This document shows positions 5,329-31,422 of a stretch of DNA of 64,000 nucleotides, piece by piece. Position numbers and translations under genes: made by a program. Origin of the DNA: Methanolinea sp. (GTDB lineage: Archaea > Halobacteriota > Methanomicrobia > Methanomicrobiales > Methanospirillaceae); NCBI GenBank assembly GCA_030019395.1, contig JASEES010000005.1, forward strand, positions 1 through 64,000, written 5' to 3'. Under the pieces are notes generated by a model. The model was not told where the DNA came from, did no database searches, and was given only the letters and a program-made list of their open reading frames with translations. The stretch's first letter is position 1; each line of letters opens with the position of its first letter.

Positions 5329-5684
5329 CTGAATCAATGGCAAGAGAGAGCAGGAAAGACCTGCGGGGGCAGGTGTTTGCCTTAAAGGACCTCGTCGAGT
5401 ACCAGCCGGGGACGGTTGCGAGCAGAATGATCATCAACAACAAGGCCGGGAGCATCACGGTCTTTTCCTTTGACAAGGACGAGGGACTCTCGGAGCATAC
5501 GGCACCCTACGATGCCGTGGTCACCATCCTCGACGGGGAGGCGGAAGTCTGGGTCGGTGGCGAGACCCATGCCATGAAGGAGGGCCAGACCATCATCTTT
5601 CCTGCAAACGTGCCCCACGCCCTTTCTGCAACGACGCGTTTCAAGATGGCACTGACGATGATCCGGGGATCCGAGGATGAGTGA
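5325..5684 (+). CDS. Cupin-domain protein
   Basis: 119 residues. A single cupin barrel with the two sequence motifs around residues 53-75 and 88-103 (EHTAPYDAVVTILDGEAEV, and the FPANVPHAL stretch with its histidine). The GTG start at 5325 overlaps the stop of the NapH-like gene by 4 bases and is preceded by GGAG; an in-frame ATG 12 bases later has no ribosome site, so GTG is chosen. Close relatives of this type are often annotated as cupin proteins of unknown ligand. Its 3' end overlaps the next gene by 8 bases. Confidence 0.85.
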   Translation: MTESMARESRKDLRGQVFALKDLVEYQPGTVASRMIINNKAGSITVFSFDKDEGLSEHTAPYDAVVTILDGEAEVWVGGETHAMKEGQTIIFPANVPHALSATTRFKMALTMIRGSEDE

Positions 5685-5979
5685 AGGGGGTGAGGGGAAG
5701 TACTGCACCATCTGTGGTGGTATTCCCCCCGAAGAGATCAAGATCAGGAAGATCCTGATCGATGGGAAGGAGACGGGAATCGACAAGCTGGATTTCATCC
5801 TTGAGGAGGTTTTTCGGCTGAACTGTCCTACGGACCAGGAGATCGTGGCGGAGATCCTCAGGAGGGTCAGGGTTTTTAATTATGTCCCGACCAGGGTAAC
5901 AGAAAAGTACGGGGAAGCCCTTCTCGAGGAGTACAGGCGCTTCGTGCGGGACCGTGAAATACCCGGACAGATAACCTGA
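5677..5979 (+). CDS. Small zinc-ribbon-like protein of unknown function
   Basis: 100 residues with one N-terminal CTICGG motif (C10 and C13), an acidic charged helical middle and no other cysteine pair; a single further cysteine is near residue 50. I do not recognise an enzymatic motif. Similar short proteins occur beside cupins in Methanomicrobiales as far as I recall, sometimes with misleading transcription-factor names. The ATG at 5677 overlaps the cupin gene by 8 bases, so it is the last gene of the NapH-like operon, followed by a strong T-tract. Confidence 0.75.
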   Translation: MSEGGEGKYCTICGGIPPEEIKIRKILIDGKETGIDKLDFILEEVFRLNCPTDQEIVAEILRRVRVFNYVPTRVTEKYGEALLEEYRRFVRDREIPGQIT

Positions 5980-5986
5980 AATTCTC

Positions 5987-6002
5987 TTTTTTTGTTTTTT
6001 TT
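5987..6002 (+). terminator. T-tract terminator of the NapH-like operon
   Basis: Sixteen bases with 15 T and one G begin 8 bases after the stop codon at 5979. This is a textbook archaeal oligo-T terminator on the plus strand. Confidence 0.75.
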
Positions 6003-14287: not shown

Positions 14288-16183
14288 TCACCCCTTTACA
14301 CCGCTTCGTTCCCGGGTAGGTCGTCGGAACTTCCCTTCCGGGACGAATATCTCGAAGCGGGCACCCTTTCCGGGAACACCGGTCTCCCGGATGGAAAGCC
14401 CCGTGATGGCGAGGATCTCCCGGGACAGGAAAAGGCCAAGACCGGTATGTTTTCCAAAACCCTTCCTGAAGAGATATTTTTTGTCCTCCTCCGGAATTCC
14501 CACGCCGTTGTCTTCGACGGCGATAACAAGACCCCCCTGTTCTTCTCCCGCAGAGACCCTGATCCGGGAGAGGGAAGGACCGCCGTAACGGAAAGAATTT
14601 TCGAACAGGTTGAAAATGACCTTCTCGAAGAGGGGATCCGCATAGACCTCGGTATCATCCACCTCAAGGAGGATATCGACACCCGATGGCGGAAACCCTT
14701 CCCGGATTCTCGCGGCAATGTCTGCCACGTTCTGCCATGATGGTTCCCTGACGCCGATCTCCTGGTAATCCCGGGTGAAGGTGATCTGTTCCTCTGCGGT
14801 GTCAAGGACCTTTTTCATCTTGTCGAGGAATTCCCTGATGGTTGTTAGTTCTTTTTCGTCCCTGGCGAGTTCGATGTACCATTTCAGGGCCGAGACCTGG
14901 TTGAGGAGATCGTGGCGGGTGATGCTGGAGAGGAGGTGGAGTTTCCGGTTTGCAAGGGCGAGGGCATCCTCTGCCATCTTCCTTTCCGTGATGTCGTTGA
15001 CAAAGAGGAGGATGCCGGAGACATTTCCCTCGAGGTCAAGGAGCGGCACCTTGTGTGTCTCGACCCACCGGGTTCCCCCGTTCCGTGTCTGCATCTGCTC
15101 GATAATGCCAAGCTTGGGTTTTTTGGTCGAGATGACTTCCAAATCATCCCTGTAATACTTTTCGGCCAGCTCCGGGAAGAGGTCGTACGCACTTTTTCCC
15201 TCGATCTCTTCCCGGGGAAGACCTATTGAAGCCGCCGCTGCGGGGTTGACGTGGATGAACCGGTTCTCCGTGTCCTTGTACCAGATCATGGCCGGGGCGT
15301 TGTCAAAGATGGTTTGCAGTTCTGTCGTCAATGCGAGCAGTGCAGCCTGGTTGCGCCTGCGCTCCGTGATATCACGCACGACCGAGAGGACAACCTCCCT
15401 GTTCCGGATTATCACGCGGTGGGCATGGATCTCGACCGGGACGGTGCCCCCGTCTTTTCTCCGGTGTTCCGTCTCGAAAATCGCGTACCCTTTTTCGAGG
15501 ATCTCCCTGCCGATCACGTCGAGGGGCCTGCTGTGTCCTCCCCGAACGAGGTCAAGCGGTGTCATCGCAAGGAACTCTTCCCTGCTGTACCCGAGCATTT
15601 TGCAGGCCACTGCATTCACTTCCATAAAACGACCCGGGAGACCGTCTTCGCGGAGTTCGTGGATATGGATGGCATCGTTTGCCGACTCGAAAATCTCCCG
15701 GAACTTTGCCTCGCTCTCTTCCAGTGCCGCCTCTTTCTCCAGCCTCTCCCTGACCTCGCGGAGTGCCCGGTCCCTCATCTCGCGGTACGCACGGACCTGC
15801 TGGATGAGTTCGGTCACGTCGTCGATGAATACCAGTGCATAGGTTTTATTCCCCTCCGGAACGGAATGGACTGTCGTCCTCTGGAAACGGAGCCCTCCTC
15901 CCGGCAGGGGTGCAGGGATGAAATGGGGGTGGAACTGTGTCGAGAAGAAAGCAGCAGCACCGCCCTCGAAGACCTGGCCAATGCGGAGAGCGTACTTCCT
16001 GTCCGAAAGGTGGGGGTAGAGGTTGCGGAGATCACGGCCGAGTACTTTCTCCCGGGGAATGCCTGTCCATTCCTCAATCGTCCTGTTCCAGCAGATGACC
16101 GTGTAATCGGATTCCAGAATGATGATGCCGGCGGGCAGGATGTCAAGGTTCTCGCACTGGGAGAGGAAGGAGCTCATCGTCAT
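14288..16183 (-). CDS. PAS-domain sensor histidine kinase (soluble)
   Basis: 631 residues, no membrane segments. Three PAS domains (about 10-130, 165-285, 290-410) precede a dimerisation/phosphoacceptor helix with SSITRHDLLNQ (His near 428) and a GHKL ATPase domain with N box (FNLFENSFRYGG), G1 (DNGVGIP) and G2 (TGLGLFLSR). It should autophosphorylate on His in response to an intracellular signal. Its ATG overlaps the CheC stop by 4 bases, so it is translationally coupled to CheC and the receiver gene before it, its probable partners. The TRHD phosphoacceptor type is common in methanogens. Confidence 0.9.
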   Translation of the reverse strand: MTMSSFLSQCENLDILPAGIIILESDYTVICWNRTIEEWTGIPREKVLGRDLRNLYPHLSDRKYALRIGQVFEGGAAAFFSTQFHPHFIPAPLPGGGLRFQRTTVHSVPEGNKTYALVFIDDVTELIQQVRAYREMRDRALREVRERLEKEAALEESEAKFREIFESANDAIHIHELREDGLPGRFMEVNAVACKMLGYSREEFLAMTPLDLVRGGHSRPLDVIGREILEKGYAIFETEHRRKDGGTVPVEIHAHRVIIRNREVVLSVVRDITERRRNQAALLALTTELQTIFDNAPAMIWYKDTENRFIHVNPAAAASIGLPREEIEGKSAYDLFPELAEKYYRDDLEVISTKKPKLGIIEQMQTRNGGTRWVETHKVPLLDLEGNVSGILLFVNDITERKMAEDALALANRKLHLLSSITRHDLLNQVSALKWYIELARDEKELTTIREFLDKMKKVLDTAEEQITFTRDYQEIGVREPSWQNVADIAARIREGFPPSGVDILLEVDDTEVYADPLFEKVIFNLFENSFRYGGPSLSRIRVSAGEEQGGLVIAVEDNGVGIPEEDKKYLFRKGFGKHTGLGLFLSREILAITGLSIRETGVPGKGARFEIFVPEGKFRRPTRERSGVKG

Positions 16184-16788
16184 GAATGGCTGCCCATTAC
16201 CGCGGTTATCTTTTCAAGCAGGGTATCAAGGGCACCTATTTCGAATATCATCAGGATGTTGCCGACTACCCGGAGGTCTTCGAGTATGAACTGCGACACG
16301 GCGAGGATGACCCAGTCGTAGTCAGGAGACCCCTCTCTGCCGAGAATATCCCCGATTCCGCCCTCCCTGTATTCCGGCATCGAGTAGATCAGGCGCTCCC
16401 CGAGGACGTTTGTAATGGAGCCCATTACGGCATTGTTCACGATATTGCCAACCTCGTTCAAAGTCTCGATCCGGAGCGCGTCGAGGTCGGGTTCCTCGAT
16501 CTTCTCCCCCGTGAGGGCCATGATCAGGATTGCGGCACTCTTTTCGGGAAAGACAAGCATGCTCATGCCCGAAAAAGACCCCGAGAACCTGAGTGTGACG
16601 GCAGAGAGGTGGGCGCTGTCCAGGAGCCGCTGCTCACGTGTCAGATCGGAATACCGCAACACCCGGACTTCCGGAACCTGGAGCCGTATGTGCGTCCCGG
16701 TCATGTCGTTGAGGAGCCCGGCGGCACGCCCGACACCGATGTTGATCAACTCGCGGATCGCGTCAATGGACTCTTCTCCGGCATTCAT
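16180..16788 (-). CDS. cheC: CheC-like phosphatase
   Basis: 202 residues. Both CheC active-site signatures are recognisable: DAIRELIN near residues 9-16 with a conserved proline 23 later, and ETLNEVGN near 108-115 with a proline about 22 later. CheC proteins dephosphorylate phospho-receivers such as CheY. Here the gene is sandwiched, with 4-base overlaps on both sides, between a stand-alone receiver and a histidine kinase, not next to other chemotaxis genes. It therefore probably resets that receiver. The first site's D/S-xxx-E-xx-N form is complete; the second has Glu in place of the usual Ser at its first position. Confidence 0.88.
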   Translation of the reverse strand: MNAGEESIDAIRELINIGVGRAAGLLNDMTGTHIRLQVPEVRVLRYSDLTREQRLLDSAHLSAVTLRFSGSFSGMSMLVFPEKSAAILIMALTGEKIEEPDLDALRIETLNEVGNIVNNAVMGSITNVLGERLIYSMPEYREGGIGDILGREGSPDYDWVILAVSQFILEDLRVVGNILMIFEIGALDTLLEKITAVMGSHS

Positions 16789-17156
16789 GACTTTTTTGCG
16801 CTCCCGATCGCTCTCCCGACGGCAGGGATGAGAACACCCTTGTCTACCGGCTTGTTGAGGACATCGAAAGCCCCGAGCTCGAGGCAGATGTCCCGGGTGG
16901 TCTTCTGGATATCGGAGGTGAAGACAAGGACGGGGGTGCCAAGACCTTCTTCCCGGACCATCCTTAAAAAAGTGTACCCGTCGATCCCGGGCATCAGGAG
17001 GTCGCAGATGACGAGGTCGGGGGACTCCCCGAGGGCCACCGTGAAACCCTCGCGTCCGTCTCCCGCAGTCAGGACCTGGTACCCCGCTTCCTCGAGGACA
17101 GAAGAAATGAGTTTCCTCTGGAACCGCGAGTCGTCGATGACGAGAATTTTTGCCAT
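16785..17156 (-). CDS. Stand-alone response regulator (CheY-like)
   Basis: 123 residues, a receiver domain only. Acidic pair D8/D9, phosphoacceptor D52, T80 and K102 are all in place. No output domain, so it acts by protein contact like CheY. A GGAG ribosome site precedes ATG 17156. Its stop overlaps the CheC start by 4 bases and CheC in turn overlaps the kinase gene, so kinase, receiver and phosphatase are made together. The output target is unknown; the ABC exporter and partner-switching genes lie upstream on the same strand. Confidence 0.9.
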   Translation of the reverse strand: MAKILVIDDSRFQRKLISSVLEEAGYQVLTAGDGREGFTVALGESPDLVICDLLMPGIDGYTFLRMVREEGLGTPVLVFTSDIQKTTRDICLELGAFDVLNKPVDKGVLIPAVGRAIGSAKKS

Positions 17157-17248
17157 TCCGGCTCTCCCATCCTGAAAATGAGTTTCCCCATTCCCCGTTC
17201 GACCTCTTTCCTGATAAATTTCGCCCTTCCTCTCCCGCTCCCCGCCCC

Positions 17249-19141: not shown

Positions 19142-19555
19142 TCAATCCCGGCGTTTCCGGAATGTGAGGATGTTTTCCCCGTCCCGGAACTCGTAGGAGA
19201 CCTCGTCCATCAGCGTCCGGATGAGGTGTATGCCGAGGCCCCCGACCTCTCTCTCCCCGAGGGGCGCAGAGATATCGGGCTCCGGCACGAGGAGGGGGTT
19301 GAACGGGACCCCCCTGTCCCGGAGCTCGATGGTGACGTGGTCGGGCCCGGGCATGACGCCGAGGACGAGATCTCCTTCTCCGCCGGGGTAGGCATGGGTC
19401 ATGACGTTGACAACCGCTTCCTCAACGGCAAGTTCCAGATCGAGGAGGAGCCGTTCCCGGATTCCGGCCTCTCCGAGGACCTGCCGGAGGAAACCAAAAA
19501 CCTCCCCGAGGTTCCGGCGGTCCGCCCGGAGTGTGAGGTGGGACCAGCCGGTCAT
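19142..19555 (-). CDS. RsbW/SpoIIAB-like anti-sigma-type serine kinase
   Basis: 137 residues forming a single GHKL ATPase domain of the HATPase_c_2 type. N box ELAVEEAVVN (about 41-50), G1 box DRGVPFNP (80-87) and G2 box GGLGIHLI (105-112) are intact. In bacteria such proteins phosphorylate a STAS antagonist and hold a sigma factor. Its start overlaps the SpoIIE-type phosphatase stop by 4 bases, and a STAS gene is next upstream, giving the complete partner-switching trio. Archaea have no sigma-70 factors, so its sequestered target must be something else; this is inference. Confidence 0.88.
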   Translation of the reverse strand: MTGWSHLTLRADRRNLGEVFGFLRQVLGEAGIRERLLLDLELAVEEAVVNVMTHAYPGGEGDLVLGVMPGPDHVTIELRDRGVPFNPLLVPEPDISAPLGEREVGGLGIHLIRTLMDEVSYEFRDGENILTFRKRRD

Positions 19556-20940
19556 GGCAATCCGACCTTCAGGACGAGGAGTGTGATATCATCGAACTGG
19601 GGCATGCCGCGGGCGTGCCGGGCGACACTTTCCATGACAACGTCGAGGATATCCCGGGCCGTCCGTTCCCGCGAAGCCACGACCACGTCTGCAAGCCGCC
19701 CGGTTCCGAACTCCTCGTCCTGCGCATTGACGGCCTCGGTGACCCCGTCGGTATAGAAGACGAGAATATCGCCCGGGGAGAGGGTTACGTGCGCGTCCGT
19801 GTATTCGGCATCCCCGATGGCGCCGAGTGCCGGCCCCGTGATGCCGAGATCCGACCGCGTCCCGTCCGCCCTGACGAGGAGGGGAGGGTTGTGGCCTGCA
19901 TTGACATACCTGACGGTTCGCGATGCAGGGTCGACCACGCCGTAGCAGAGGGTGACAAACATCCCGTAACGGGCGTCGGCAGAGATCATCCTGTTCGCAT
20001 CGCTAATGCACTGCAGGGGGGATCTGTGCCACATCGCGTTCGCCCGCGTCACCGTCCGGGAAAGCGCCATGAAGAGGGCGGCAGGGACTCCCTTGCCCGA
20101 TACGTCAGCGATGATGAGACCGAAAGGTTCTCCGGGGCCCCGGGCGATGACGTCATAGAAGTCACCCCCGACCTCCTTTGCGGGAATGCTCCGGGCAGCA
20201 AGGTCAAACCCCTCTATCGGGGGGATCGATTCGGGGAGAAAACTCTCCTGGATCTGGCGTGCGACTGCCAGTTCCGCGTTCTTTCTCTCGAGTTCGGCGT
20301 GGTACGTGTCCCTTTCACCCTTCGTTTTCTGCTCGGCTGCAAGGTTGGAAATGATAAACGCGAAGATGAACATGCCGCCGGCGTTGGCAAGAACCATGGG
20401 GATGCCGATCTGGGCGACGAGGCTCTCTGCCATGGAACGGGGTTCTGCCATGGAGAGCACGAGGCCATTGTGGAGGACTTCCATTCCCCCTGCAAAGAGG
20501 ACTGCCTTTCCCACGCCAATAAACTTCCTGCCAGAGGAGAGCCAGAGGAGACCGCCAAGGAGGCCTGCAATCACCGTCGCGAGGCAGCAGGGGACAACAG
20601 TAAATCCTCCCATGCCGGACCTGTAGAGGGCTCCCACGAGGCCCGCACCCAGCCCGGCGACGGGCCCGCCGAGGAGACCCGCGACCATGGGTCCGAGGTC
20701 CCGCACGTTGACGGGGGCGCCCATGATCTCGATGGTCCCCCATGTTCCGTAAATCGAGAGGGCCCCGAACACGAGGACGAGGAACGCCTGGTGCTTCCAC
20801 GTCAGTTTCCCTGCCACCACGTCCCGGAATGTGGGTGTCCGCGAGAGGAGGTACGCGATGACGGAAAGGACGCAGACGAGCTGGAAGAGGACGTGGATTA
20901 TTTCTGCATATTCAGTGAGCAACCCGGTAGGGACATCCAT
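19552..20940 (-). CDS. Membrane SpoIIE-type PP2C serine phosphatase with 5TM-LYT sensor
   Basis: 462 residues. The first ~205 form six or so membrane segments with the GPMVAGLLGGPVAGLGAGL repeat of the 5TMR-LYT (LytS/YhcK) sensor domain. A short coiled coil (about 208-232) leads into a SpoIIE/RsbU PP2C domain: KEVGGDFYDV, ADVSGKGVPAALFM, YTDGVTEA and FDDITLLVL supply all metal-binding aspartates. It should dephosphorylate the STAS protein encoded 24 bases upstream in response to a membrane or extracellular signal. It overlaps the RsbW-like gene by 4 bases. Confidence 0.92.
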   Translation of the reverse strand: MDVPTGLLTEYAEIIHVLFQLVCVLSVIAYLLSRTPTFRDVVAGKLTWKHQAFLVLVFGALSIYGTWGTIEIMGAPVNVRDLGPMVAGLLGGPVAGLGAGLVGALYRSGMGGFTVVPCCLATVIAGLLGGLLWLSSGRKFIGVGKAVLFAGGMEVLHNGLVLSMAEPRSMAESLVAQIGIPMVLANAGGMFIFAFIISNLAAEQKTKGERDTYHAELERKNAELAVARQIQESFLPESIPPIEGFDLAARSIPAKEVGGDFYDVIARGPGEPFGLIIADVSGKGVPAALFMALSRTVTRANAMWHRSPLQCISDANRMISADARYGMFVTLCYGVVDPASRTVRYVNAGHNPPLLVRADGTRSDLGITGPALGAIGDAEYTDAHVTLSPGDILVFYTDGVTEAVNAQDEEFGTGRLADVVVASRERTARDILDVVMESVARHARGMPQFDDITLLVLKVGLP

Positions 20941-20964
20941 TCCTGTGTACCTGCACGCTTCCGT

Positions 20965-21318
20965 TCAGGAGAAGAAGCTCCCGACGGCCTGCTCCTCCTG
21001 CTCGAATATGGTAAAGATACGGTTGAACCCGGTCATCGCGATCACGTCACGGACCTGCGGCTGGAGGCAGGCGAGCCGGAGATCGCCCCCCGCCTGCCGT
21101 GCCTGTTTCAACCCGGCGAGGAGGACACGGAGGCCCGAGCTGCTGATGTACGAGAGGCCAGATGCGTTGACGACGATTTTCGTCCGGCCAGACCGGACCA
21201 GTGACTGGATTGCGTTCTCTCCCTCCGGACTTGAGTTGGCATCCATCCGCCCGGAAAAAAGGATGATATCGACATCACGGTCCTGTTTCGTCGAGACCTG
21301 GAAGGGAGCACTTACCAT
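20965..21318 (-). CDS. STAS-domain anti-sigma-factor antagonist-like protein
   Basis: 117 residues, one STAS domain. The conserved GLSYISSSGLRVLL stretch (about 54-67) contains the serine phosphorylated in SpoIIAA/RsbV proteins. It is the first gene of the same-strand run that continues with the phosphatase and the RsbW-like kinase. Upstream of ATG 21318 there is no ribosome site, but AATAAT at about 21335-21340 on the minus strand could be a TATA box giving an almost leaderless mRNA. It should switch between phosphorylated and free forms under the opposing action of its two neighbours. Confidence 0.9.
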   Translation of the reverse strand: MVSAPFQVSTKQDRDVDIILFSGRMDANSSPEGENAIQSLVRSGRTKIVVNASGLSYISSSGLRVLLAGLKQARQAGGDLRLACLQPQVRDVIAMTGFNRIFTIFEQEEQAVGSFFS

Positions 21319-21653
21319 AGGAGTATTGGTACTCGCAGTGTGACATTATTCTTCCCCTCATTATTCAGGCCTTGGAGACTTTCCCCTCGTGAATCGAAGC
21401 CTGCTCTCTCCCATTTTCAGCCGGGCATCCCACCCTTGGTTTGAGTCCCGGCCGGACTTCTGCATGTCCGGTGATTTGACGCAGGGGATGGAACGATGTC
21501 ATCCATCACTCCTAAAAGAAGTCATAATGCCTGACTTTTTCCGGCGTTATTTTATTTACAAGACCGTCCGGGAATCTATCCCGGTGCCGGAATCCGATAA
21601 ATAAACCGTGTTGTTATTACTCCGGAACGCAGTACTATCCCTGGTAGTTCCCG
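21319..21653. other. Intergenic region between STAS and MBL-fusion genes
   Basis: This 335-base stretch separates two divergent genes. It holds a likely TATA-like AATAAATAA-type sequence near 21597-21605 for the plus-strand gene and the AT-rich element for the STAS gene. A 25-codon frame (21527-21604) has no ribosome site and no family resemblance; I do not call it. No tRNA or structured RNA is seen. Confidence 0.5.
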
Positions 21654-23390
21654 ATGCGACCTGCACCACCCCTGCGTCCTGCCCGGTGGCAGCCCCTGCC
21701 CGGGACAGAGGGAATGCGCATTTTCCCTTTTTTTGGAAAGCCGGACTGCACCAGTTCAAACCTGTGCCTCATCGATACCGGTAGCGAGTTTATCGTGATC
21801 GATACAGGGACAAACGAGCGGCAACTCGAAGATGTCGTCCGACTCGTCAGGGAAGTGCCGGGCGGATCTCTTCGCCCCGTCATCCTCTTTATCACGCACT
21901 GCCACATCGATCACTGCTACCCGCTCCTCGCCGGGTCACTGCTCGACCGTCTCCCCCTCTTCGTTGCTGCCCAGGAAGTGGGGGCAGCAGCAATCGCAAC
22001 CGGAGACGTGCAGTTGACCCTCGGGGAGATGTTCAGGAAGCAATTGAAGCCTCACGCCGTCCAGATTCCCCTCCTGTGCACGGCTGACCGGGAGCGGGGA
22101 GGAGAGAAGATCCTTTCCGTCCCCGGCCTTGGCTCCGTACGCCTTCTGACAGACGTGCCCGCCGCCACGGGGCCTCTCCACACCGTATCCCAGCAGGTCA
22201 TTCTTCCCCCGGGGACGTGCCTTTCGGTTTATTCAACCCCGGGACACACGCCGGACAGCATCTGCGTACGCATCGGCAGTGTCCTCTTCTGCGGAGATAT
22301 CCTCTTTGCAACGACACCCGGCGTTGCGGGTATCAGGGGTTTTTCCCGCGACGACCTTCTCTCGACGATCCGGACACTCCAGGCAATCGTTGACGCGGGA
22401 GAAATCACCGTCTGGTACCCCGGCCACGGCGATCCGCTCGGGAACCCTGCCATGGCAAGGGCCCTGCACAATCTCGAAAGGGAGGTCCTCTCCCTGCGGG
22501 AAATCCACACGTTTGACCTTTCCCGTCTCGAGGAGTCCCGGGACCATGCCCTCGATATCCTCGACGAGGCAGAGAGGCTCTTTGCCATCATCGGGGGGCG
22601 GCTCCTCGCACTCTCTTTCATCCTCGAGTCCCTCGGCGAGGAAGCAGAGGCAGAAAAGTTCCGGGAAGTCATGGACATTACCGCGACCGACACGGTGCTC
22701 TGCGATTTCCAGCAGTTCTGTGCCGATGTCCGTGCAGGGAAGAGGGTCGAAGTCCAGCTCATCCCCAAGGCCGTCCAGGTGCTGCAGAAACTCCGAAGAT
22801 CCCTCTCCTGCGAGGAAGTCTCCGGTGTCGTTGACCACTCCATCATCTGGAGGGCCGAGAGGCTCCTTGATGAATTTCTCGCAACGGCCCGCGACATTCC
22901 CCGCGATCCGACACCTGACCAGGTGGATCTTGTGTCCCTCCTTGAATCTCTCGTTACTACCGCGCACTGCCCCCCCGTCCCGGACGAGGAATTCATCGCT
23001 GCCGCGGAGGACGCGGAAGCGTTCCGGAAAGCCCTCGTTGCCCGGCTTGCATTCCTCCCTCCGGTTCCTGCTCTCTCCCTCGCCCTCGACCGGAAAAAAA
23101 CCGACATTCCCCCGGTTGCCAGCGACAGGTTCCGGCTCTCCGACAGCCTGATGGCCCTTCTCGAGGACCTCGAGGCAGCAGGGTGCCGGGATGCACGCCT
23201 CGGCGCCCGCCAGCGAGGGTCCGCGGTAGAACTTGTCATCGAGGCAGGTTGCCCGGGTAAAAAAGAAATATTGTCCCCCCGCCTTACCCGGAGACACGAA
23301 CGGAGGTTTCACCTCTGCGGCGGAGAGTTCTCGGCAGCCCGTGAGGGGGATCGGATCACCTGCACGGTATCGTTTGTCGCAGCGCGGTAA
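21654..23390 (+). CDS. Metallo-beta-lactamase-fold protein with C-terminal kinase-like region
   Basis: 578 residues. Residues about 20-265 are an MBL-fold hydrolase: THCHIDH (H82, H84, D86, H87), a GHTPDS histidine, FCGDILF aspartate and YPGHGD histidine complete a two-metal site. Residues about 285-578 are unusual. Helical segments around 300-410 resemble a dimerisation/phosphotransfer bundle, and the last ~110 residues resemble a GHKL ATPase that has lost its DxGxG motif, ending with a GGEFSAAREGDRITCTVSF strand pair like that closing kinase domains. This second part is an inference from pattern only. ATG 21714 is an alternative start. Divergent from the partner-switching genes. Confidence 0.82.
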   Translation: MRPAPPLRPARWQPLPGTEGMRIFPFFGKPDCTSSNLCLIDTGSEFIVIDTGTNERQLEDVVRLVREVPGGSLRPVILFITHCHIDHCYPLLAGSLLDRLPLFVAAQEVGAAAIATGDVQLTLGEMFRKQLKPHAVQIPLLCTADRERGGEKILSVPGLGSVRLLTDVPAATGPLHTVSQQVILPPGTCLSVYSTPGHTPDSICVRIGSVLFCGDILFATTPGVAGIRGFSRDDLLSTIRTLQAIVDAGEITVWYPGHGDPLGNPAMARALHNLEREVLSLREIHTFDLSRLEESRDHALDILDEAERLFAIIGGRLLALSFILESLGEEAEAEKFREVMDITATDTVLCDFQQFCADVRAGKRVEVQLIPKAVQVLQKLRRSLSCEEVSGVVDHSIIWRAERLLDEFLATARDIPRDPTPDQVDLVSLLESLVTTAHCPPVPDEEFIAAAEDAEAFRKALVARLAFLPPVPALSLALDRKKTDIPPVASDRFRLSDSLMALLEDLEAAGCRDARLGARQRGSAVELVIEAGCPGKKEILSPRLTRRHERRFHLCGGEFSAAREGDRITCTVSFVAAR

Positions 23391-24055: not shown

Positions 24056-24937
24056 GTGATCGACATTCTCTGTGTGGATGATGACCCCGATTTCCTCGAG
24101 ATAACGAAGCGCATGGTGGAAAGATCCGGCGCGATCTCGATAGATACTGCAAGTTCTGCAGAAAATGCCCTCGCAATGATGGAGCGCCGTGCGTACGATG
24201 TCATCGTCTCGGACTACCAGATGCCCCGTACTGACGGTATCGAGTTCCTGAAAACGCTCCGAAAATCAGGGAATACAACGCCATTCATCATTTTTACCGG
24301 CAGGGGTCGCGAGGAGATCGTCATCCGGGCCTACGACAGCGGGGCGGACTTTTACGTCCAGAAAGGGGGAGACCTGAAGGCACAGTTCCGCGAGCTGGAG
24401 CACAAGATCGTGCAGGCGGTGCGGATCCACGAGGCAGAGTCTGCATTCCGCGAGAGCGAGGAGCGGTACCGATCTGTTGTGGAGAACGCAAGCGAGGGGA
24501 TCGTGGTCGTGCAGGACGAACGTATCCTGTATGCCAACCCGCGGGCCCTGGAAATGGTAGAGGCCACTCCCGACGAGGTGACAGGAAAGAACTTCGCCCT
24601 CTTCGTTCACCCCGATGATATCCCGCTCGTGACCGGGAGGTACTACAAGCGCCAGAAAGGAGTACCGATTCCCAAGACCTATGACTTCAGGATAGTCGGG
24701 AAAGGGGGACTTGTCACGTGGGTCCAGGCATCGGCAGTCCTGATACCATGGAACCGCCGGCCCGCAACCCTCGCTCTCCTGGCAGACATCACGGAGAGGA
24801 GGGAGCGCGAGAATGGTGTCCGTCAGCGAAACGTCGACCTCGAAAAGACTGTGGAAGACCAGGCTGCCCGGCTGGAAAAGTCAGAAAACGAGAAGAAAGA
24901 CCTCCTCAGGAGACTTGCCGGGGATGATGCCGGCTGA
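24056..24937 (+). CDS. Receiver-PAS protein with coiled-coil tail
   Basis: 293 residues from GTG 24056, preceded by GGAG at good spacing. A receiver domain (1-120) has the acidic DDD near residues 8-10, phosphoacceptor Asp in VSDYQMP near 56, and a Lys in the QKGGD stretch. A PAS domain follows (about 132-250), then a charged coiled coil to the end. There is no kinase or DNA-binding domain, so it probably relays a signal by protein contact, perhaps with the larger hybrid kinase encoded next, whose receiver has the same SDYQMP and FTGRG features. Confidence 0.85.
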   Translation: MIDILCVDDDPDFLEITKRMVERSGAISIDTASSAENALAMMERRAYDVIVSDYQMPRTDGIEFLKTLRKSGNTTPFIIFTGRGREEIVIRAYDSGADFYVQKGGDLKAQFRELEHKIVQAVRIHEAESAFRESEERYRSVVENASEGIVVVQDERILYANPRALEMVEATPDEVTGKNFALFVHPDDIPLVTGRYYKRQKGVPIPKTYDFRIVGKGGLVTWVQASAVLIPWNRRPATLALLADITERRERENGVRQRNVDLEKTVEDQAARLEKSENEKKDLLRRLAGDDAG

Positions 24938-25108
24938 CAGGAACGATCCATTCTTCCACCAGTACGGGTGACCTTTATTCCTGCCAGTTCATCCCTCCGT
25001 TCCAGGCATTGCACCCGCCGGTGTTTCACGAGAGATGAGTTTTTCTCCTGTAGATTCCATCCTTCTTCATCCATTTCCCTTCGTGAATGAAAACCGGGAT
25101 CAGGAGCA

Positions 25109-28100
25109 ATGACAAACCCGTACCGCATCCTGTACGTCGACGATGAACCGGCACTGCTCGATATAGTCCGGCTCTACCTCGAGAGGAAGAAGAGGTTCAT
25201 CGTGGACACGGCAACGTCTGCAGGCGAGGCGCTGAAAATGATGCAGGGGAACCCGCCCTACGATGCCATCGTCAGCGATTACCAGATGCCCGTCATGGAT
25301 GGGATCGGGTTCCTCAGGGTTCTCCGCAAGCAAGGGGATGATACGCCCTTTATCATATTCACCGGGAAGGGCAGGGAGGACATTGTCATCCAGGCCCTGA
25401 ACGAGGGTGCCGACTTTTACCTCCAGAAAGGAGGTGACCCCGCATCCCAGTTCGCCGAGCTTGCCCACGTCATCCAGAAGGTTGTCCGCCAGAAGAGAAT
25501 CGAGTCAAGCATCCGCGACATGGAACGACGCGAGGCAGACATCCTCAATTTCCTGCCTGATGCAACGGTAGCAATCGATCTCCGGGGTACGGTGATCGCA
25601 TGGAACCGTGCAATGGAGAAGATGACAGGGATTCCTGCTGACCAGATGCTCGGCAAAGGGGACCACGAGTATGCCCTCCCGTTTTACCACGAACGGCGCC
25701 CGATCCTCGTCGACCTCGTCCTTCAATCCGATCCCGGAACCGAGGCCAGGTACCCGTACATCAGGAAGGAGGGAGAGACCCTCATCTCGGAGATTTTCAT
25801 ACCCTCTTTTAATGACGGAAAGGGTGCCCACCTCTGGTTCCTCGCGTCGCCTCTTTACAATTCGCGGGGAGAGGTCGTCGGGGCGATCGAGTCCATCCGG
25901 GACGTGAGCGAATGGAAGGACATGGAAAAGGAGATGGAGGAGAGGGGGAGGTTCCTCTCCACGCTGGTCGCAAACCTCCCGGGCTTTGTTTACCGGTGCA
26001 GGAATGACCGGAACTGGACGATGGAATACATAAGCGACGGGTGCCGGGACGTGACAGGGTATGAACCGTCCGATTTCATCGGGAATGCGACACTTGCCTT
26101 CAATGATATCATCCACCCCGACTACCGGAACGTCCTGTGGAACCTCTGGCAGGAAATCCTCGCAGATCGGCGGGTATTCGAATACGAGTACCCCATTACC
26201 ACCCGCCATGGCGAGACCCGCTGGGTGTGGGAACGGGGGAGGGGTATCTATTCGGAGGATGGCACTCTTCTTTACCTTGAAGGGTTCATCACGGACATCA
26301 CGGCCCGGAAGAACGTCGAAGACGAACTCCGGAAGAGCCGGGAGCAGCTCGCCCTTGCCATCGAGGGGTCGGGGGCCGGTCTCTGGGACTGGAAGGTCCA
26401 GACAGGGGAACTCTCCTGTAACGAGAGGTGGGCTGAAATTTTGGGGTATACACGGGATGAACTCGAACCTCTCAGCATCGAGATCTGGACCCGCCTTGTG
26501 CATCCCGATGACCTGGAGGTTTCCAATTCCCTGCTCCAGAAGCATTTTGCCCACGAGACCTCCTCCTACGAGTGCGAAGCGCGGATGCGGCACAAGGATG
26601 GGCACTGGGTCTGGATCCTTGATCGGGGAAAGGTGACGGAGTGGGACGGGGAGGGAAGACCGGTGCGCATGACGGGAACCCACCTCGATATTACCGAGCG
26701 GAAACGTATCGAGGAGGAGCTCCGGGAGAGCAGGGAAATTCTCCACAATTTCATCGGGAACCTCCCGGTTGGTTTGTACCGGAACACTCCCGGTGCCCGG
26801 GGCGAGTACATCATGGCAAACCCCTATATTGCCCGGCTGCACGGGTTCGAGACCCTCGATGAATTATTCACGCATCCTGCAGCAGACCTGTACGAAGATC
26901 CCTCCGAACGCCTTGCGTTCTCCGACGAACTGGTGCGGGCCGGTTCCGTGTTCGGCAGGGAGCTCCAGTTCAGGAGAAAGAACGGGGAGCGGTTCTGGGG
27001 GCGTGTCTCGGCAGTCGCGGTACGCGATGAAAAGGGCAATGTCAAGTACTTTGATGGAGTTATCGAGGACATCACGGAGCAAAAAAAGGCCGAGAAAGCG
27101 TTCGGGGAGAGCGAAAAGAAATACCGGGATCTCCTCGAAAAACTCCCCGAACAGGTCATCGTGCACAGGGGAGGCCTCATCCTGTACGCAAACCCCGCAA
27201 CCTTCAGGACACTGGGATACAAGCCCGAAGAGGTTATCAACCGCCATGTCCTCGAGTTCATCCCCCCGGAATACCACCCCCGGGTCGTCGAGACCCTTCG
27301 AAAGAGGGATGCCGGGCAGGAAACGGAGTATTACGAGATCGAGATCCTTGGAAAAGATGGAATCCGGAGGACCATGAGAGTCAGCGGGAATCCTATCACT
27401 TTCGATGGCGAGCCGGCAACCCTCATTGTCCTCTTTGACATCACCGAAAGGAAACGTGCAGAACAGGCGCTCCAGCAGGCAAACAGGAAGATAGCCCTAT
27501 TAAACAGCGTCACGAGGCACGATATCAGTAACCATCTCCTTGTGCTCACCGGTCTTCTTGAACTCCTGCAGGACACCATGGAGCCATCGGAAAGGGCGGA
27601 CCTCCTCGAAAAAGTACGCAGGGCGGCTGTCAGGATATCTGCAGCGATCCAGTTCACGAAAGATTATGAAAAGATCGGGGGCAGCGATCCCCAGTGGCAG
27701 GATATCCACGATCTCGTCGAGACAGCGAAGGCAGATTTTGTCTCTCCGGCGCTCACGATTGAAAACCAGATACCCCGCGGCCTTCTCGTATTTTCCGATT
27801 CCATGTTGGCAAAAGTCATAACGAACCTCATTGACAATTCAGTCCGACACGGGGGGAATGTAACATCTATCCGGTTCTCGACCGCTGGGGAGGGGGAAAA
27901 CCTCCTCATTGCCTACGAGGATGATGGCGCCGGCATCCCGGATGGAGAGAAAGAAATGATTTTTGAGAGGGGATACGGGAAGAACACGGGATGGGGACTT
28001 TTCCTGTCACGCGAGATCCTTGCCATCACCGGGATGAGCATCAGGGAGGACGGCGTGCCGGGGGAGGGGGCGCGGTTTCTTCTCACCGTGCCCGGGGGAT

Positions 28101-28144
28101 CGTGGAAGTATGTCACCCGGCCCGCCGCAGGGAAGGAACACTGA
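25109..28144 (+). CDS. Hybrid receiver-multi-PAS histidine kinase
   Basis: 1011 residues, soluble. An N-terminal receiver (about 5-125; phosphoacceptor Asp in VSDYQMP) is followed by five PAS/PAC domains (about 145-265, 285-410, 415-540, 545-660, 665-785). Then come a phosphoacceptor helix with SVTRHDISNH (His near 804) and a GHKL domain with NLIDNSVRHGG, DDGAGIP and WGLFLSREIL boxes. The receiver at the N-terminus suggests it is itself controlled by another kinase. The kinase core is of the same TRHD class as the one at 14288-16183. Five PAS domains give it several possible ligands or cofactors, none identifiable. Confidence 0.9.
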   Translation: MTNPYRILYVDDEPALLDIVRLYLERKKRFIVDTATSAGEALKMMQGNPPYDAIVSDYQMPVMDGIGFLRVLRKQGDDTPFIIFTGKGREDIVIQALNEGADFYLQKGGDPASQFAELAHVIQKVVRQKRIESSIRDMERREADILNFLPDATVAIDLRGTVIAWNRAMEKMTGIPADQMLGKGDHEYALPFYHERRPILVDLVLQSDPGTEARYPYIRKEGETLISEIFIPSFNDGKGAHLWFLASPLYNSRGEVVGAIESIRDVSEWKDMEKEMEERGRFLSTLVANLPGFVYRCRNDRNWTMEYISDGCRDVTGYEPSDFIGNATLAFNDIIHPDYRNVLWNLWQEILADRRVFEYEYPITTRHGETRWVWERGRGIYSEDGTLLYLEGFITDITARKNVEDELRKSREQLALAIEGSGAGLWDWKVQTGELSCNERWAEILGYTRDELEPLSIEIWTRLVHPDDLEVSNSLLQKHFAHETSSYECEARMRHKDGHWVWILDRGKVTEWDGEGRPVRMTGTHLDITERKRIEEELRESREILHNFIGNLPVGLYRNTPGARGEYIMANPYIARLHGFETLDELFTHPAADLYEDPSERLAFSDELVRAGSVFGRELQFRRKNGERFWGRVSAVAVRDEKGNVKYFDGVIEDITEQKKAEKAFGESEKKYRDLLEKLPEQVIVHRGGLILYANPATFRTLGYKPEEVINRHVLEFIPPEYHPRVVETLRKRDAGQETEYYEIEILGKDGIRRTMRVSGNPITFDGEPATLIVLFDITERKRAEQALQQANRKIALLNSVTRHDISNHLLVLTGLLELLQDTMEPSERADLLEKVRRAAVRISAAIQFTKDYEKIGGSDPQWQDIHDLVETAKADFVSPALTIENQIPRGLLVFSDSMLAKVITNLIDNSVRHGGNVTSIRFSTAGEGENLLIAYEDDGAGIPDGEKEMIFERGYGKNTGWGLFLSREILAITGMSIREDGVPGEGARFLLTVPGGSWKYVTRPAAGKEH

Positions 28145-28465
28145 ATTTTTGACGAGAATCGTATCCATGGTTTTCATTTTGTGTCCCTGTGTCCGTTAAA
28201 AACCTGTAATTCTATTGAATATGCAACCAGGAATGCAGGATTGAAAAACGAACCTGCCTGAATGAACTCCTTTCATTCCCCTATCCAGCCTGTGATACAC
28301 ATTACCAGCTGCGGAGGTTCACCAGAGACGTTTGCATGATACACCAAGATATGCGGGAAATGGATTCACCCGGGGAAGGAATCTGAGAAGGAGAGCGATG
28401 ATACTGGAATCAACCGGAAGAAAACCCCCGGACATGTTCCCCGGGACTCTATTTCCTCCCTCCCG
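28145..28465. other. Intergenic region, no gene seen
   Basis: A 321-base gap between convergent genes. It begins with a T5 run two bases after the kinase stop, a possible terminator, and is more AT-rich than its neighbours. I see no reading frame with protein-like composition, tRNA or convincing repeat. Confidence 0.5.
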
Positions 28466-29092
28466 TCAGATCTTCAGGATCGGTCCGAGTGCCAGGGAGA
28501 GGTAGGATATCCCGAACAGGACGAGGAATGCCCCGCACCCCCGGAGGACCCATGCATACACACGCTCATCGAATATTCTCTTCCCCCTGTGGATGCTTGC
28601 CGAGACGATGGTGTACCACCCGAAATCTGCCGACCAGTGGCCGGCAAGGAAGGCGAGAGCAAAGAGGAAAGCCTGCCGGGCAGCCGCGAGTACGAGGGCA
28701 CTCCCGACGGAGAACCACCAGAGCCAGAAGTAGGGGTTCGAGACACTCGTGACCGCCCCGGCGAGGTAAGGGTTTGCCACCACGCTGCCGGACCCCCCTT
28801 CCGGCACCCCCGATCCGGCACCGCGGATCGTCAGTATCCCGAAGACGACGAGTGCAGTTCCCCCGATGGCCCCGATCAGGCCCGAGTACTCGGACACTGC
28901 CGTGACCGCGCTCACTCCCAGGATGATCGCAGAGAAGATGACAGCCTCAATGAGGGCGTGCCCGGCGGAGACCCGGGCCCCGGTCTTCCAGCCGCCGGTC
29001 ACGGACGTATTGATGGTTGCAACAAGGGTCGGTCCGGGAACGAGTGCCCCGGTCAGCCCGATGACGAGCCCGAGGAGGTATGTCTGGAGCAT
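28466..29092 (-). CDS. LysE family translocator
   Basis: 208 residues with six hydrophobic segments. The N-terminal LVIGLTGALVPGPTLVATI stretch with the conserved PGP is the LysE/RhtB family signature, and SNPYFWLWWFSVG in the middle is also typical of archaeal members. It would export an amino acid or similar small solute. No strong ribosome site. It is the only transporter within the sensory-gene island, flanked by kinase genes. Confidence 0.87.
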   Translation of the reverse strand: MLQTYLLGLVIGLTGALVPGPTLVATINTSVTGGWKTGARVSAGHALIEAVIFSAIILGVSAVTAVSEYSGLIGAIGGTALVVFGILTIRGAGSGVPEGGSGSVVANPYLAGAVTSVSNPYFWLWWFSVGSALVLAAARQAFLFALAFLAGHWSADFGWYTIVSASIHRGKRIFDERVYAWVLRGCGAFLVLFGISYLSLALGPILKI

Positions 29093-29199
29093 CTTCTCAC
29101 GGCCTGATTATCCATGGTATTGTTCTCCTTCGCAGGTATCGTACCTTTCGATGAAGAGAATGGAAGAGGGGAAGAAAAAGGGCTTTGCCCGGTGGGACT

Positions 29200-31317
29200 T
29201 TAAAATTTTTCCGGGAACCTGATGTGGAATGTTGCCCCCGGTGCATTCTCGATCTCCATCGTTCCTCCTATCTGACGGACGAGGATTGAGATCAGCTGGA
29301 GCCCGAGGGTCTGTGCATTTTCGATATCGAGACCGGGAGGAAGACCCGGGCCATCGTCACTGACGTGGAGAGCAAAGAAATGATCATCCCCATGGATAAA
29401 CCTGACAGTTATCTTTCCGGTCTCTCTCCCGATGAATGCGTATTTGAGGGAGTTCGTGAGCAGTTCGTTGATGATCAGGCCGCAGGGGATCGCTGTGTCG
29501 AGGGTGATATTCACGTTCTGGATATCCATGTCAATTGTCACATCTGTGTTGAACATGGAGGAATTTTTCAGGTCCAGGACGAGGCTCTCGATGTATTCAC
29601 GGGCGTTGATGAATCCCAGGTACCGGGACTGGTAAAGTTTCTCGTGAACAAGTGCCATCGTCCGCACCCTCCCCTGGCACTCTTCGAGCATTGCAACCGA
29701 TTTCGGATCAGGTATATACTGGGCCTGGAGTTGCAGGAACCCGGAGATTACCTGCATGTTATTCTTGACCCGGTGGTGAACTTCCTTGATAATGACCTCT
29801 TTCTCCTGCAGGGATGCCTCGAGTTTCTCCTCATAACGTCGTCGATCCGTGATGTCCAGATGGATCCCTACCCAGGACACGATTCTGCCCCGGTCATCCC
29901 TGAGCGGGGCTCCCCGGGAGAGAACGAAGTGTTCCCTGCCCTGCCTGTCAACAATCCGGTACTCATAATCCCAGAAGTATCCGCCTTTTACGCACTGTTG
30001 CCAGTCAACCAGTGCCTGCTCGCGGATGTCGGCAGGTAGCCGGGTCATCCAGTTTTCTGTTTTGCATTCCTCCAGTGTTATTCCGACCAGTTCAAGGAAG
30101 GAGCGTGATGCGTAGGAGAGAATTCCCTTTTCGTCTGTGACCCAGACACCGAAGGGAATCATCTCGCCAATCATGTGGTATTTTCTCTCGCTCTCATAGA
30201 GGGACTTTTCCGCCCGTTTTCTCTCTGAAATGTCGCGGATAATGCTGATGACAGAGGGAGAACGGTAATACTCGATGGCCTTGCTACTCATCTCAACAGG
30301 GACAGGGGCAGCGTCTTTTCCCGTGAGTGAGAATTCGCGGACGACCTTTCCTTTCCGGCGCAGGTTTTCAATCCAGGAACGACCATTCTCCGGGGTGATC
30401 GCAATACCGAGGTCGGAAAGGGTCATCCCTTTCAGCTCGTCTTCCGAATATCCTGTCATCTCACAGGCAATCCTGTTGGCCTCGAAGATTCTTCCATCAA
30501 AGTCATGGATGAGAATTGCATCGCCAGCATTGTCAAAGAGCGTTCGATAGTGGATTTCCTGAAAAAGGAGTTCTTCTTTGGCCTTTTTCTTATCCGTAAC
30601 ATCAATGACGGAAAAAATGGCATTTCCATCAGGGGCAAGAGAGGCTGTGAGGAGGGCCCAGACCCCCGTTCCATCCTTTTTCTGGAGGAGAACTTCGCTG
30701 TCTACGACTTTTCCCTCCTGCTGCAGTTGTTCCAGGAGGAGAAGGCCGTGCCGTTCATCGGAAAAGAGTTCTTTTACAGCGGTTCCTTCCAGTTCTTCCG
30801 GGGAATATCCAAGAAGATTTGCGACCGGAGCGTTGGAAACAACAATCGTATCTGTCTTTTTGTCCACGGTAAACAGTGCGGCCTGGGAATTCTGAAAAAT
30901 TGACTGGAATATCTTTCTCTTCTCGATCTCGTCCGAGTATGCAGAGATAACGACCCCGAGGGTGACGATGATATAAAACCACGCAATGCTTGCGGCGTAG
31001 TACGCAATGTCAAAGGGAGTGTAATAATAGACCAGACCGAGATAGATCCATCCCAGCAGCAGGGCAAAATAAACAACGACCCGGGGCCTGATTGAGGCGA
31101 CGAGGAATACGGGCAGGATATAAAAATAGGGGTATATCAAGGATATGCCCGTTTTCAGGGAGTAGATGGTCACAAGGAAAGTCACAATCGTGATAAAAGC
31201 CGCAATGAGAATGCGGAAAAGTTCCATTGCAGGGATTTCTTTCCGGGATAGCGTGTCCAGGGAATCCAGAATCCCCTTAAGCCCTGCCATATTCTTTCTC
31301 GAGGGCTGTGAGTTCAT
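29200..31317 (-). CDS. Membrane PAS sensor histidine kinase (HisKA_2 type)
   Basis: 705 residues from ATG 31317, supported by GAGGGG 7 bases upstream. About four membrane segments lie within residues 30-140, with very short loops. Three PAS domains follow (about 150-265, 270-390, 395-520), then the phosphoacceptor KEVHHRVKNNMQ of HisKA_2 kinases and a GHKL domain with NELLTNSLKYAF, DDGPGLPPG and a TLGLQLI G2 box. It senses membrane or intracellular cues. It is divergent from a receiver-PAS gene 105 bases away, which is a likely partner. Confidence 0.9.
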   Translation of the reverse strand: MNSQPSRKNMAGLKGILDSLDTLSRKEIPAMELFRILIAAFITIVTFLVTIYSLKTGISLIYPYFYILPVFLVASIRPRVVVYFALLLGWIYLGLVYYYTPFDIAYYAASIAWFYIIVTLGVVISAYSDEIEKRKIFQSIFQNSQAALFTVDKKTDTIVVSNAPVANLLGYSPEELEGTAVKELFSDERHGLLLLEQLQQEGKVVDSEVLLQKKDGTGVWALLTASLAPDGNAIFSVIDVTDKKKAKEELLFQEIHYRTLFDNAGDAILIHDFDGRIFEANRIACEMTGYSEDELKGMTLSDLGIAITPENGRSWIENLRRKGKVVREFSLTGKDAAPVPVEMSSKAIEYYRSPSVISIIRDISERKRAEKSLYESERKYHMIGEMIPFGVWVTDEKGILSYASRSFLELVGITLEECKTENWMTRLPADIREQALVDWQQCVKGGYFWDYEYRIVDRQGREHFVLSRGAPLRDDRGRIVSWVGIHLDITDRRRYEEKLEASLQEKEVIIKEVHHRVKNNMQVISGFLQLQAQYIPDPKSVAMLEECQGRVRTMALVHEKLYQSRYLGFINAREYIESLVLDLKNSSMFNTDVTIDMDIQNVNITLDTAIPCGLIINELLTNSLKYAFIGRETGKITVRFIHGDDHFFALHVSDDGPGLPPGLDIENAQTLGLQLISILVRQIGGTMEIENAPGATFHIRFPEKF

Positions 31318-31380
31318 AAAATTACCCCTCATTGTTCCCGTTCGGATCGGAGAGGGCGATGTTGTCCGCCGATGCGCAAT

Positions 31381-31389
31381 GTATATTAT
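31381..31389 (+). promoter_or_regulatory. TATA box of receiver-PAS gene
   Basis: GTATATTAT is a good archaeal TATA element 34-42 bases before ATG 31423. The transcript would start near 31412, leaving a leader of about 11 bases. Confidence 0.6.
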
Positions 31390-31422
31390 TCTCCTCACCA
31401 GTGAGTTAGAAAAAGGCAAGGC

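Follow-up and report, generated by a model that had tools for sequence, protein, structure and literature searches.

An MBL-fold protein as the candidate output of a SpoII/Rsb-type phospho-switch in methanogenic archaea

Archaea, to our knowledge, have no sigma factors, and for that reason the target of their 'anti-sigma' proteins has been a puzzle since 2009. The genes concerned form a trio, encoding a STAS antagonist (here V), a membrane phosphatase (P) and an RsbW-like kinase (W). The accessible text of Anderson et al. 2009 reports the trio in Methanoculleus, Methanocorpusculum and Methanospirillum, labels the Methanoculleus marisnigri and Methanocorpusculum labreanum genes as anti-anti-sigma, anti-sigma and serine phosphatase, states that the genome gives no means of determining the targets and finds the proteins nowhere outside the order Methanomicrobiales (PMC2686161). 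The accessible part of the M. marisnigri genome paper adds that such factors must serve a new function in archaea (PMC3035220). What, then, does the switch act on? We examined this question from a window of 64,000 nucleotides, the whole stretch of Methanolinea sp. DNA that was analysed, drawn from a genome assembly of 1.8 Mb in 50 contigs that is 96% complete. The trio itself is already known; what is new is a candidate target, a conserved neighbouring gene for a protein with the metallo-beta-lactamase (MBL) fold. No paper on a link between this protein and the trio was found in the open-access literature (without preprints), and the word 'lactamase' is absent from the accessible text of Anderson et al. 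2009 (PMC2686161).

The presence of the trio at this place is real and far beyond chance. All three genes lie on the minus strand. V (117 aa; 20965..21318) matches PF01740 at 5.2e-20 and scores 90.2 bits against TIGR00377, over the cut-off of that model. P (462 aa; 19552..20940) joins a 5TM-5TMR_LYT sensor (PF07694, aa 36-199; 2.8e-40) to a SpoIIE/PP2C domain (PF07228, aa 272-459; 1.1e-52), and W (137 aa; 19142..19555) is an RsbW/SpoIIAB-like GHKL kinase (HATPase_c_2, PF13581; 1.5e-26) whose nearest solved relative is RsbW 6m36. A first-pass annotation of this DNA had described three adjacent genes on one strand with 24-base and 4-base spacings; adjacency, strand and the 24-bp gap between V and P hold, but the second spacing is a 4-bp overlap between P and W. 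STAS and stand-alone RsbW-like genes are each present once in the genome, and of its two SpoIIE-domain genes one is intact and the other frame-broken. The frame-broken gene, on contig C30 at 5532-5997 (locus L163), is split over two frames, which points either to a pseudogene or to an error of assembly; intact SpoIIE genes of about 640-650 aa are present in several genus-mates. PAS histidine kinases, receivers and a CheC-like protein surround the trio (window 14288-17165 and 24056-31419).

The catalytic residues are in place, as the first-pass annotation had read them. Ser60 of V (codon 21139..21141, minus strand) is equivalent, in an alignment to 1auz, to the phospho-serine of SpoIIAA, given as Ser58 in the accessible text of PMC8256260. 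W has E46, N50 and D80 together with the GGLG motif, and P has the metal-binding Asp residues D260, D263, D279, D398, D450 and D451. That annotation had named loss of these residues in related genomes as one sign against a working module; they are kept, which favours function. The V phospho-serine is present in 150 of 150 distinct STAS domains. E46, N50 and D80 of W are kept in 102 of 102 alignment rows, D260, D263 and D279 of P in 81 of 82 (the exception being a gap) and D398, D450 and D451 in 80 of 82 (again with gaps as the exceptions). The W and P rows include some near-duplicate genomes; the counts for the STAS tree, the V serine and the MBL ligands are of distinct sequences. We also considered loss of the phospho-serine in most relatives' STAS proteins and ruled it out: the column aligned with the SpoIIAA phosphosite is Ser in all of them, and it is the Ser-59-equivalent column that is Gly or Ala in many. 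With an antagonist serine, a GHKL kinase and a PP2C phosphatase, V, P and W would by their sequences count as a SpoII/Rsb-type partner-switching module.

A sigma factor is an improbable partner for this module, as the first-pass annotation had said of archaea in general. The Sigma70_r2 model gave no match in the window's genome and was positive in 10 control bacteria; Sigma70_r4 matched two frames of 142-143 aa, and this model is also positive in archaeal controls. The proteins reach none of the NCBIfam equivalog cut-offs, scoring 47.1 bits for RsbW (cut-off 145), 29.1 for SpoIIAB (135), 49.8 for SpoIIAA (114.75), 32.6 for SpoIIE (490.8) and 39.4 for the SiaA phosphatase (700). Judged by its sequences, the trio has neither the cognate sigma factor nor the equivalog-level scores expected of an anti-sigma system proper.

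Of 199 genomes of the order Methanomicrobiales, 139 carry SpoIIE, 119 a homologue of W and 118 a homologue of V. W and V occur together in 116 genomes, W without V in 3 and V without W in 2. From the 119 W-bearing genomes we drew 64 W-centred neighbourhoods (the window and 63 others), taking genus representatives first; the selection preceded any knowledge of the MBL link. An operon of P and W is seen at 46 of the 64 loci, and V, P and W share a strand at 29.

Unsupervised clustering of neighbouring genes across 65 stretches placed a family of about 580 aa, found at 28 loci, first after the trio itself. This is the MBL family (PF00753), and a profile search added one more locus. In the window its member is a protein of 578 aa (21654..23390, plus strand), an MBL-fold protein with a C-terminal extension and the predicted effector or partner of the switch; its gene is divergent from the trio across a 335-bp intergenic region between V and MBL (21319..21653). 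By recurrence count the family lies near W in 28 of 61 loci, and 28 of the 64 loci in the W-centred set have it no farther than 3 kb from W. A search for conserved neighbours across Methanomicrobiales, which the first-pass annotation had proposed as a check, thus finds MBL to be the most conserved neighbour outside the trio. Four other clusters (c7, c10, c28 and c37) were judged from their overlaps to be antisense frames over the trio, and the recurrent neighbours c8, c9, c11, c24, c33 and c50-52 are limited to few loci or single lineages.

That annotation had listed a transcription factor, an enzyme and the nearby ABC exporter or receiver as possible targets. The exporter, receiver and CheC-like genes lie directly downstream of the trio on the same strand, which is what recommends any of them as the target, but an ABC permease and a CheC-like protein occur near W in only 3 of 61 loci, namely the window and two close sisters. 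A receiver occurs near W in 7 of 61, and the matches outside the window and those two sisters are weak. Generic ABC ATPase matches, at 18 of 61 loci, are as frequent as expected of so huge a family. We therefore regard this set of targets as exceedingly unlikely. The enzyme option fits best, with the qualification that the enzyme would be the product of the divergent MBL gene (28/61 loci), which lies beyond the three genes that the annotation had described. Overall, its interpretation is partly supported.

MBL and W also occur together irrespective of distance. Across the 199 genomes, 94 have both, 2 have MBL only, 25 have W only and 78 have neither, so that W is present in 94 of 96 MBL-bearing genomes and in 25 of 103 that lack MBL (Fisher test 4e-30, a value that ignores relatedness). 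The two MBL-only genomes are fragmented assemblies in which V is still present. Joint absence of MBL and W recurs within genera (for example G029; G105, G129, G165, G190 and G198; G011, G164 and G184). Where both are present, they are at most 3 kb apart in 43 of the 94 genomes and at most 20 kb apart in 63, and they share a contig in 70; we estimate that random placement would put MBL within 3 kb of W in about 0.3% of cases per genome.

The association extends to the STAS gene itself. A contig search that used only the MBL family yielded 46 loci, some from genomes shared with the W-centred set, and a STAS gene lies within 240 bp at 37 of them. Of the nine MBL loci without a close STAS gene, two have one at a distance of 4.7-6.3 kb and four are truncated by the start of the contig. 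In four species (L213-L216) MBL and STAS are fused in a single frame of 694-696 aa, with STAS at the MBL C terminus; the four proteins are 73-87% identical to one another and keep the phospho-serine. In many Methanoregula relatives V and MBL lie on the same strand in overlapping frames and are divergent from P-W, and in the window it is MBL that is divergent, with V remaining beside P-W. A tree of 150 distinct STAS domains places MBL-linked STAS in at least three positions (the Methanoregula type, the window type and the MBL-only or fused type of Methanolinea), with weak deep forks over 116 columns. The linkage between MBL and STAS is thus kept through different arrangements and is therefore more than one inherited gene order.

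These observations bear on a further possibility from the first-pass list, that W sequesters a transcription factor encoded elsewhere and that shared ecology or inherited order produces the MBL linkage as a side effect. The families closest to W are anti-sigma kinases, and a distant gene would leave no trace in the neighbourhood. However, the window's genome encodes no Sigma70_r2 protein, and inherited order alone hardly explains fusion, adjacency in varied arrangements and joint loss within genera. We consider this explanation quite unlikely.

The association is also found beyond the order. Two genomes from a different family of the same phylum have MBL, V, P and W all together, which widens the distribution of the trio given by Anderson et al. 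2009. The MBL family occurs in addition on three bacterial MAG contigs (Omnitrophota, Spartobacteria and Geobacter); STAS adjoins it on the first two and not on the Geobacter contig. Besides the two genomes with all four genes together, a third carries, at L236:10967-14386, the SpoIIE phosphatase and the RsbW-like kinase as one frame of 1139 aa, with two STAS genes behind it and MBL in front.

What kind of protein is the candidate effector? The closest named relative of the source is a Methanolinea MAG, whose version of this protein is 85% identical, and this makes the host a methanogen of the Methanomicrobiales. An AlphaFold2 model from 34 sequences has a mean pLDDT of 87. The MBL-fold domain (aa 20-277; 21711..22484, plus strand) has its best VIA match in 7l0b (Z 19.9; rmsd 2.5 over 197 residues), with many other entries nearly tied. 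Seven metal ligands of the HxHxDH-H-D-H set (H82, H84, D86, H87, H198, D215 and H258) are present in all 87 of 87 distinct homologues. The fold is common to GloB, BLEG-1 and the ODP/flavo-di-iron proteins; what sets the archaeal family, with its invariant ligands, apart from those hydrolases and ODP is the C-terminal extension of about 300 residues and the STAS linkage.

A Pfam search with this extension gave no convincing match. Residues 289-413 are helical in the AlphaFold2 model, and none of 32 local families stands out in a profile comparison with aa 286-415. The remainder (aa 416-578; 22899..23387, plus strand) has a predicted order of strands and helices that is tentatively GHKL-like, and in the comparison with the 32 local families GHKL families rank 1, 2, 3 and 6. 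VIA fold matches cover the MBL domain, with the tail barely covered and no GHKL entry among them. The best tail match is a histidine-kinase core at E 7e-4 and 26% probability, and so we treat the resemblance to a degenerate GHKL domain as a lead only. The conserved N and G1 motifs are missing from the tail; if it is a GHKL domain, the absence of these usual kinase motifs would make it a pseudo-ATPase.

An MBL-fold protein could also stand upstream of the switch. MBL would then be a metal or redox sensor that sets the availability of V, and W would sequester a separate target. Adjacency and fusion are silent on direction, and a sensor role is possible for MBL-fold proteins: the model of the ODP family (PF19583; 'ODP family beta lactamase' in Pfam), which we take to be an oxygen-binding di-iron family, weakly matches 14 of the 34 members of the MBL alignment (best 0.0036), though it does not match the window protein at E 5, and the fold search also retrieves flavo-di-iron proteins, at Z 18.4 and level with many other entries. 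Flavo-di-iron proteins, however, have Glu at the second ligand position, where all 87 MBL homologues have His (H84), and P already carries a sensor domain of its own. An input role is on balance unlikely.

Other STAS fusions offer another possible output. STAS-DUF proteins of about 435 aa consist of STAS and a domain of about 310 aa of DUF type (for example L106:7663-8970 and relatives; alignments A2 and A4). Profile searches of Pfam and PDB matched the STAS part and nothing in the C-terminal domain, and the AlphaFold2 model is poor outside the STAS part (pLDDT 58). At 15 of the 64 W-centred loci STAS-DUF and W are no more than 500 bp apart; STAS-DUF is present in 89 of 199 genomes and keeps the phospho-serine in 30 of 30 proteins, as it might if this or another STAS fusion were the true output and the MBL link secondary. 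Against this, STAS-DUF is absent from three genomes that keep the trio and MBL, namely that of the window and those of two close sisters, G081 and G174, and we hold this option to be very unlikely.

RsbW-like domains, too, occur in fusions. In one genus such a domain forms the C terminus of an 800-aa protein with repeated glycine-rich segments (L121:6960-9374 and L140:8956-11364; a Pfam run on L121 gave a Cthe_2159 match). At L131:4573-6354 a MatE transporter is fused to an RsbW-like HATPase_c_2 domain beside a separate V-P-W set, and L122:1346-2827 joins an RsbW-like domain to a GNAT acetyltransferase domain, with similar long W-containing frames in other genomes. Three genes near the trio at L120:4851-8294, with relatives in L132 and L133, look from their N-terminal letters like a VWA protein, a PP2C and a protein kinase.

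We favour a phospho-switch of SpoII/Rsb type in which the MBL-fold protein, in place of a sigma factor, serves as the output, and give this reading a probability of about 55%. From the computed presence, conservation, co-occurrence, adjacency and fusion of the genes we infer phosphorylation, binding and MBL activity as follows. The 5TM-LYT domain of P would sense a membrane or extracellular signal. Its SpoIIE domain would dephosphorylate Ser60 of V, and W would re-phosphorylate it with ATP. In one phosphorylation state V would bind the MBL protein and change its activity; V would also bind W, as in the usual partner switch. In relatives a second STAS gene, beside or fused to MBL, may take the same role, and in many genomes STAS fused to another domain may do so. 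Should the tail of MBL be a degenerate GHKL domain, V would switch back and forth between two partners of the GHKL type. A more specific version, in which archaea would have retained the bacterial partner switch and put an enzyme in the place of the sigma factor, is possible but doubtful: V, once dephosphorylated, would part from the active kinase W and bind the degenerate GHKL domain on the metallo-hydrolase, and its alternation between GHKL partners would turn the metalloenzyme on or off, an enzyme that might sense redox state or hydrolyse a signal molecule.

Several observations count against MBL as the output. The family is absent from 25 of 119 W-bearing genomes; by our reading 9 of these have STAS-DUF, and the 16 of 119 with neither mean that MBL cannot be the sole output. 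MBL and the trio are far apart in some lineages: the distance is 11-20 kb in Methanoculleus-like genomes and 0.4-1.9 Mb in some genomes, and MBL is on a different contig from W in 24 of the 94 genomes with both. Being paralogues of the trio V, the STAS genes of the fused and MBL-only types link MBL to that V by extension, with the exception of the window's genome, in which there is a single STAS gene. Gene order gives no direction, and MBL could act on V.

If MBL is the output, a bacterial signalling module has been rewired to a metalloenzyme in methanogens. With a named candidate, natural fusions and co-occurrence in about 100 genomes, the puzzle of 2009 becomes a simple test of binding and phosphorylation.

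The proposed switch resembles known systems in its parts and departs from them in its output. With SpoIIAA/SpoIIAB/SpoIIE and RsbV/RsbW/RsbU of Bacillus the archaeal trio has in common the three domain families, the phospho-serine and the catalytic residues; unlike them it has no sigma factor, scores below every equivalog cut-off and carries another sensor domain on its phosphatase. SiaABCD, HsbA-HsbD and BgrV-BgrR, as described in the accessible text of PMC8457831, are likewise built around an antagonist whose state depends on a kinase and a phosphatase and which in turn governs an effector: SiaD is bound and activated by SiaC in its unphosphorylated form, and HsbD and BgrR are under the control of the STAS proteins HsbA and BgrV, respectively. 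In that account SiaC controls SiaD by direct binding, whereas V and MBL are connected here through adjacency and fusion, and the effector is a diguanylate cyclase, whereas the archaeal candidate is an MBL-fold protein (PMC8457831). SiaC, moreover, is DUF1987 and not a Pfam STAS protein, in contrast to the archaeal V. By analogy with these systems, the best reading of the archaeal sequences is that P and W would set the state of V and that V would act through MBL, as SiaC, HsbA and BgrV act on diguanylate cyclases.
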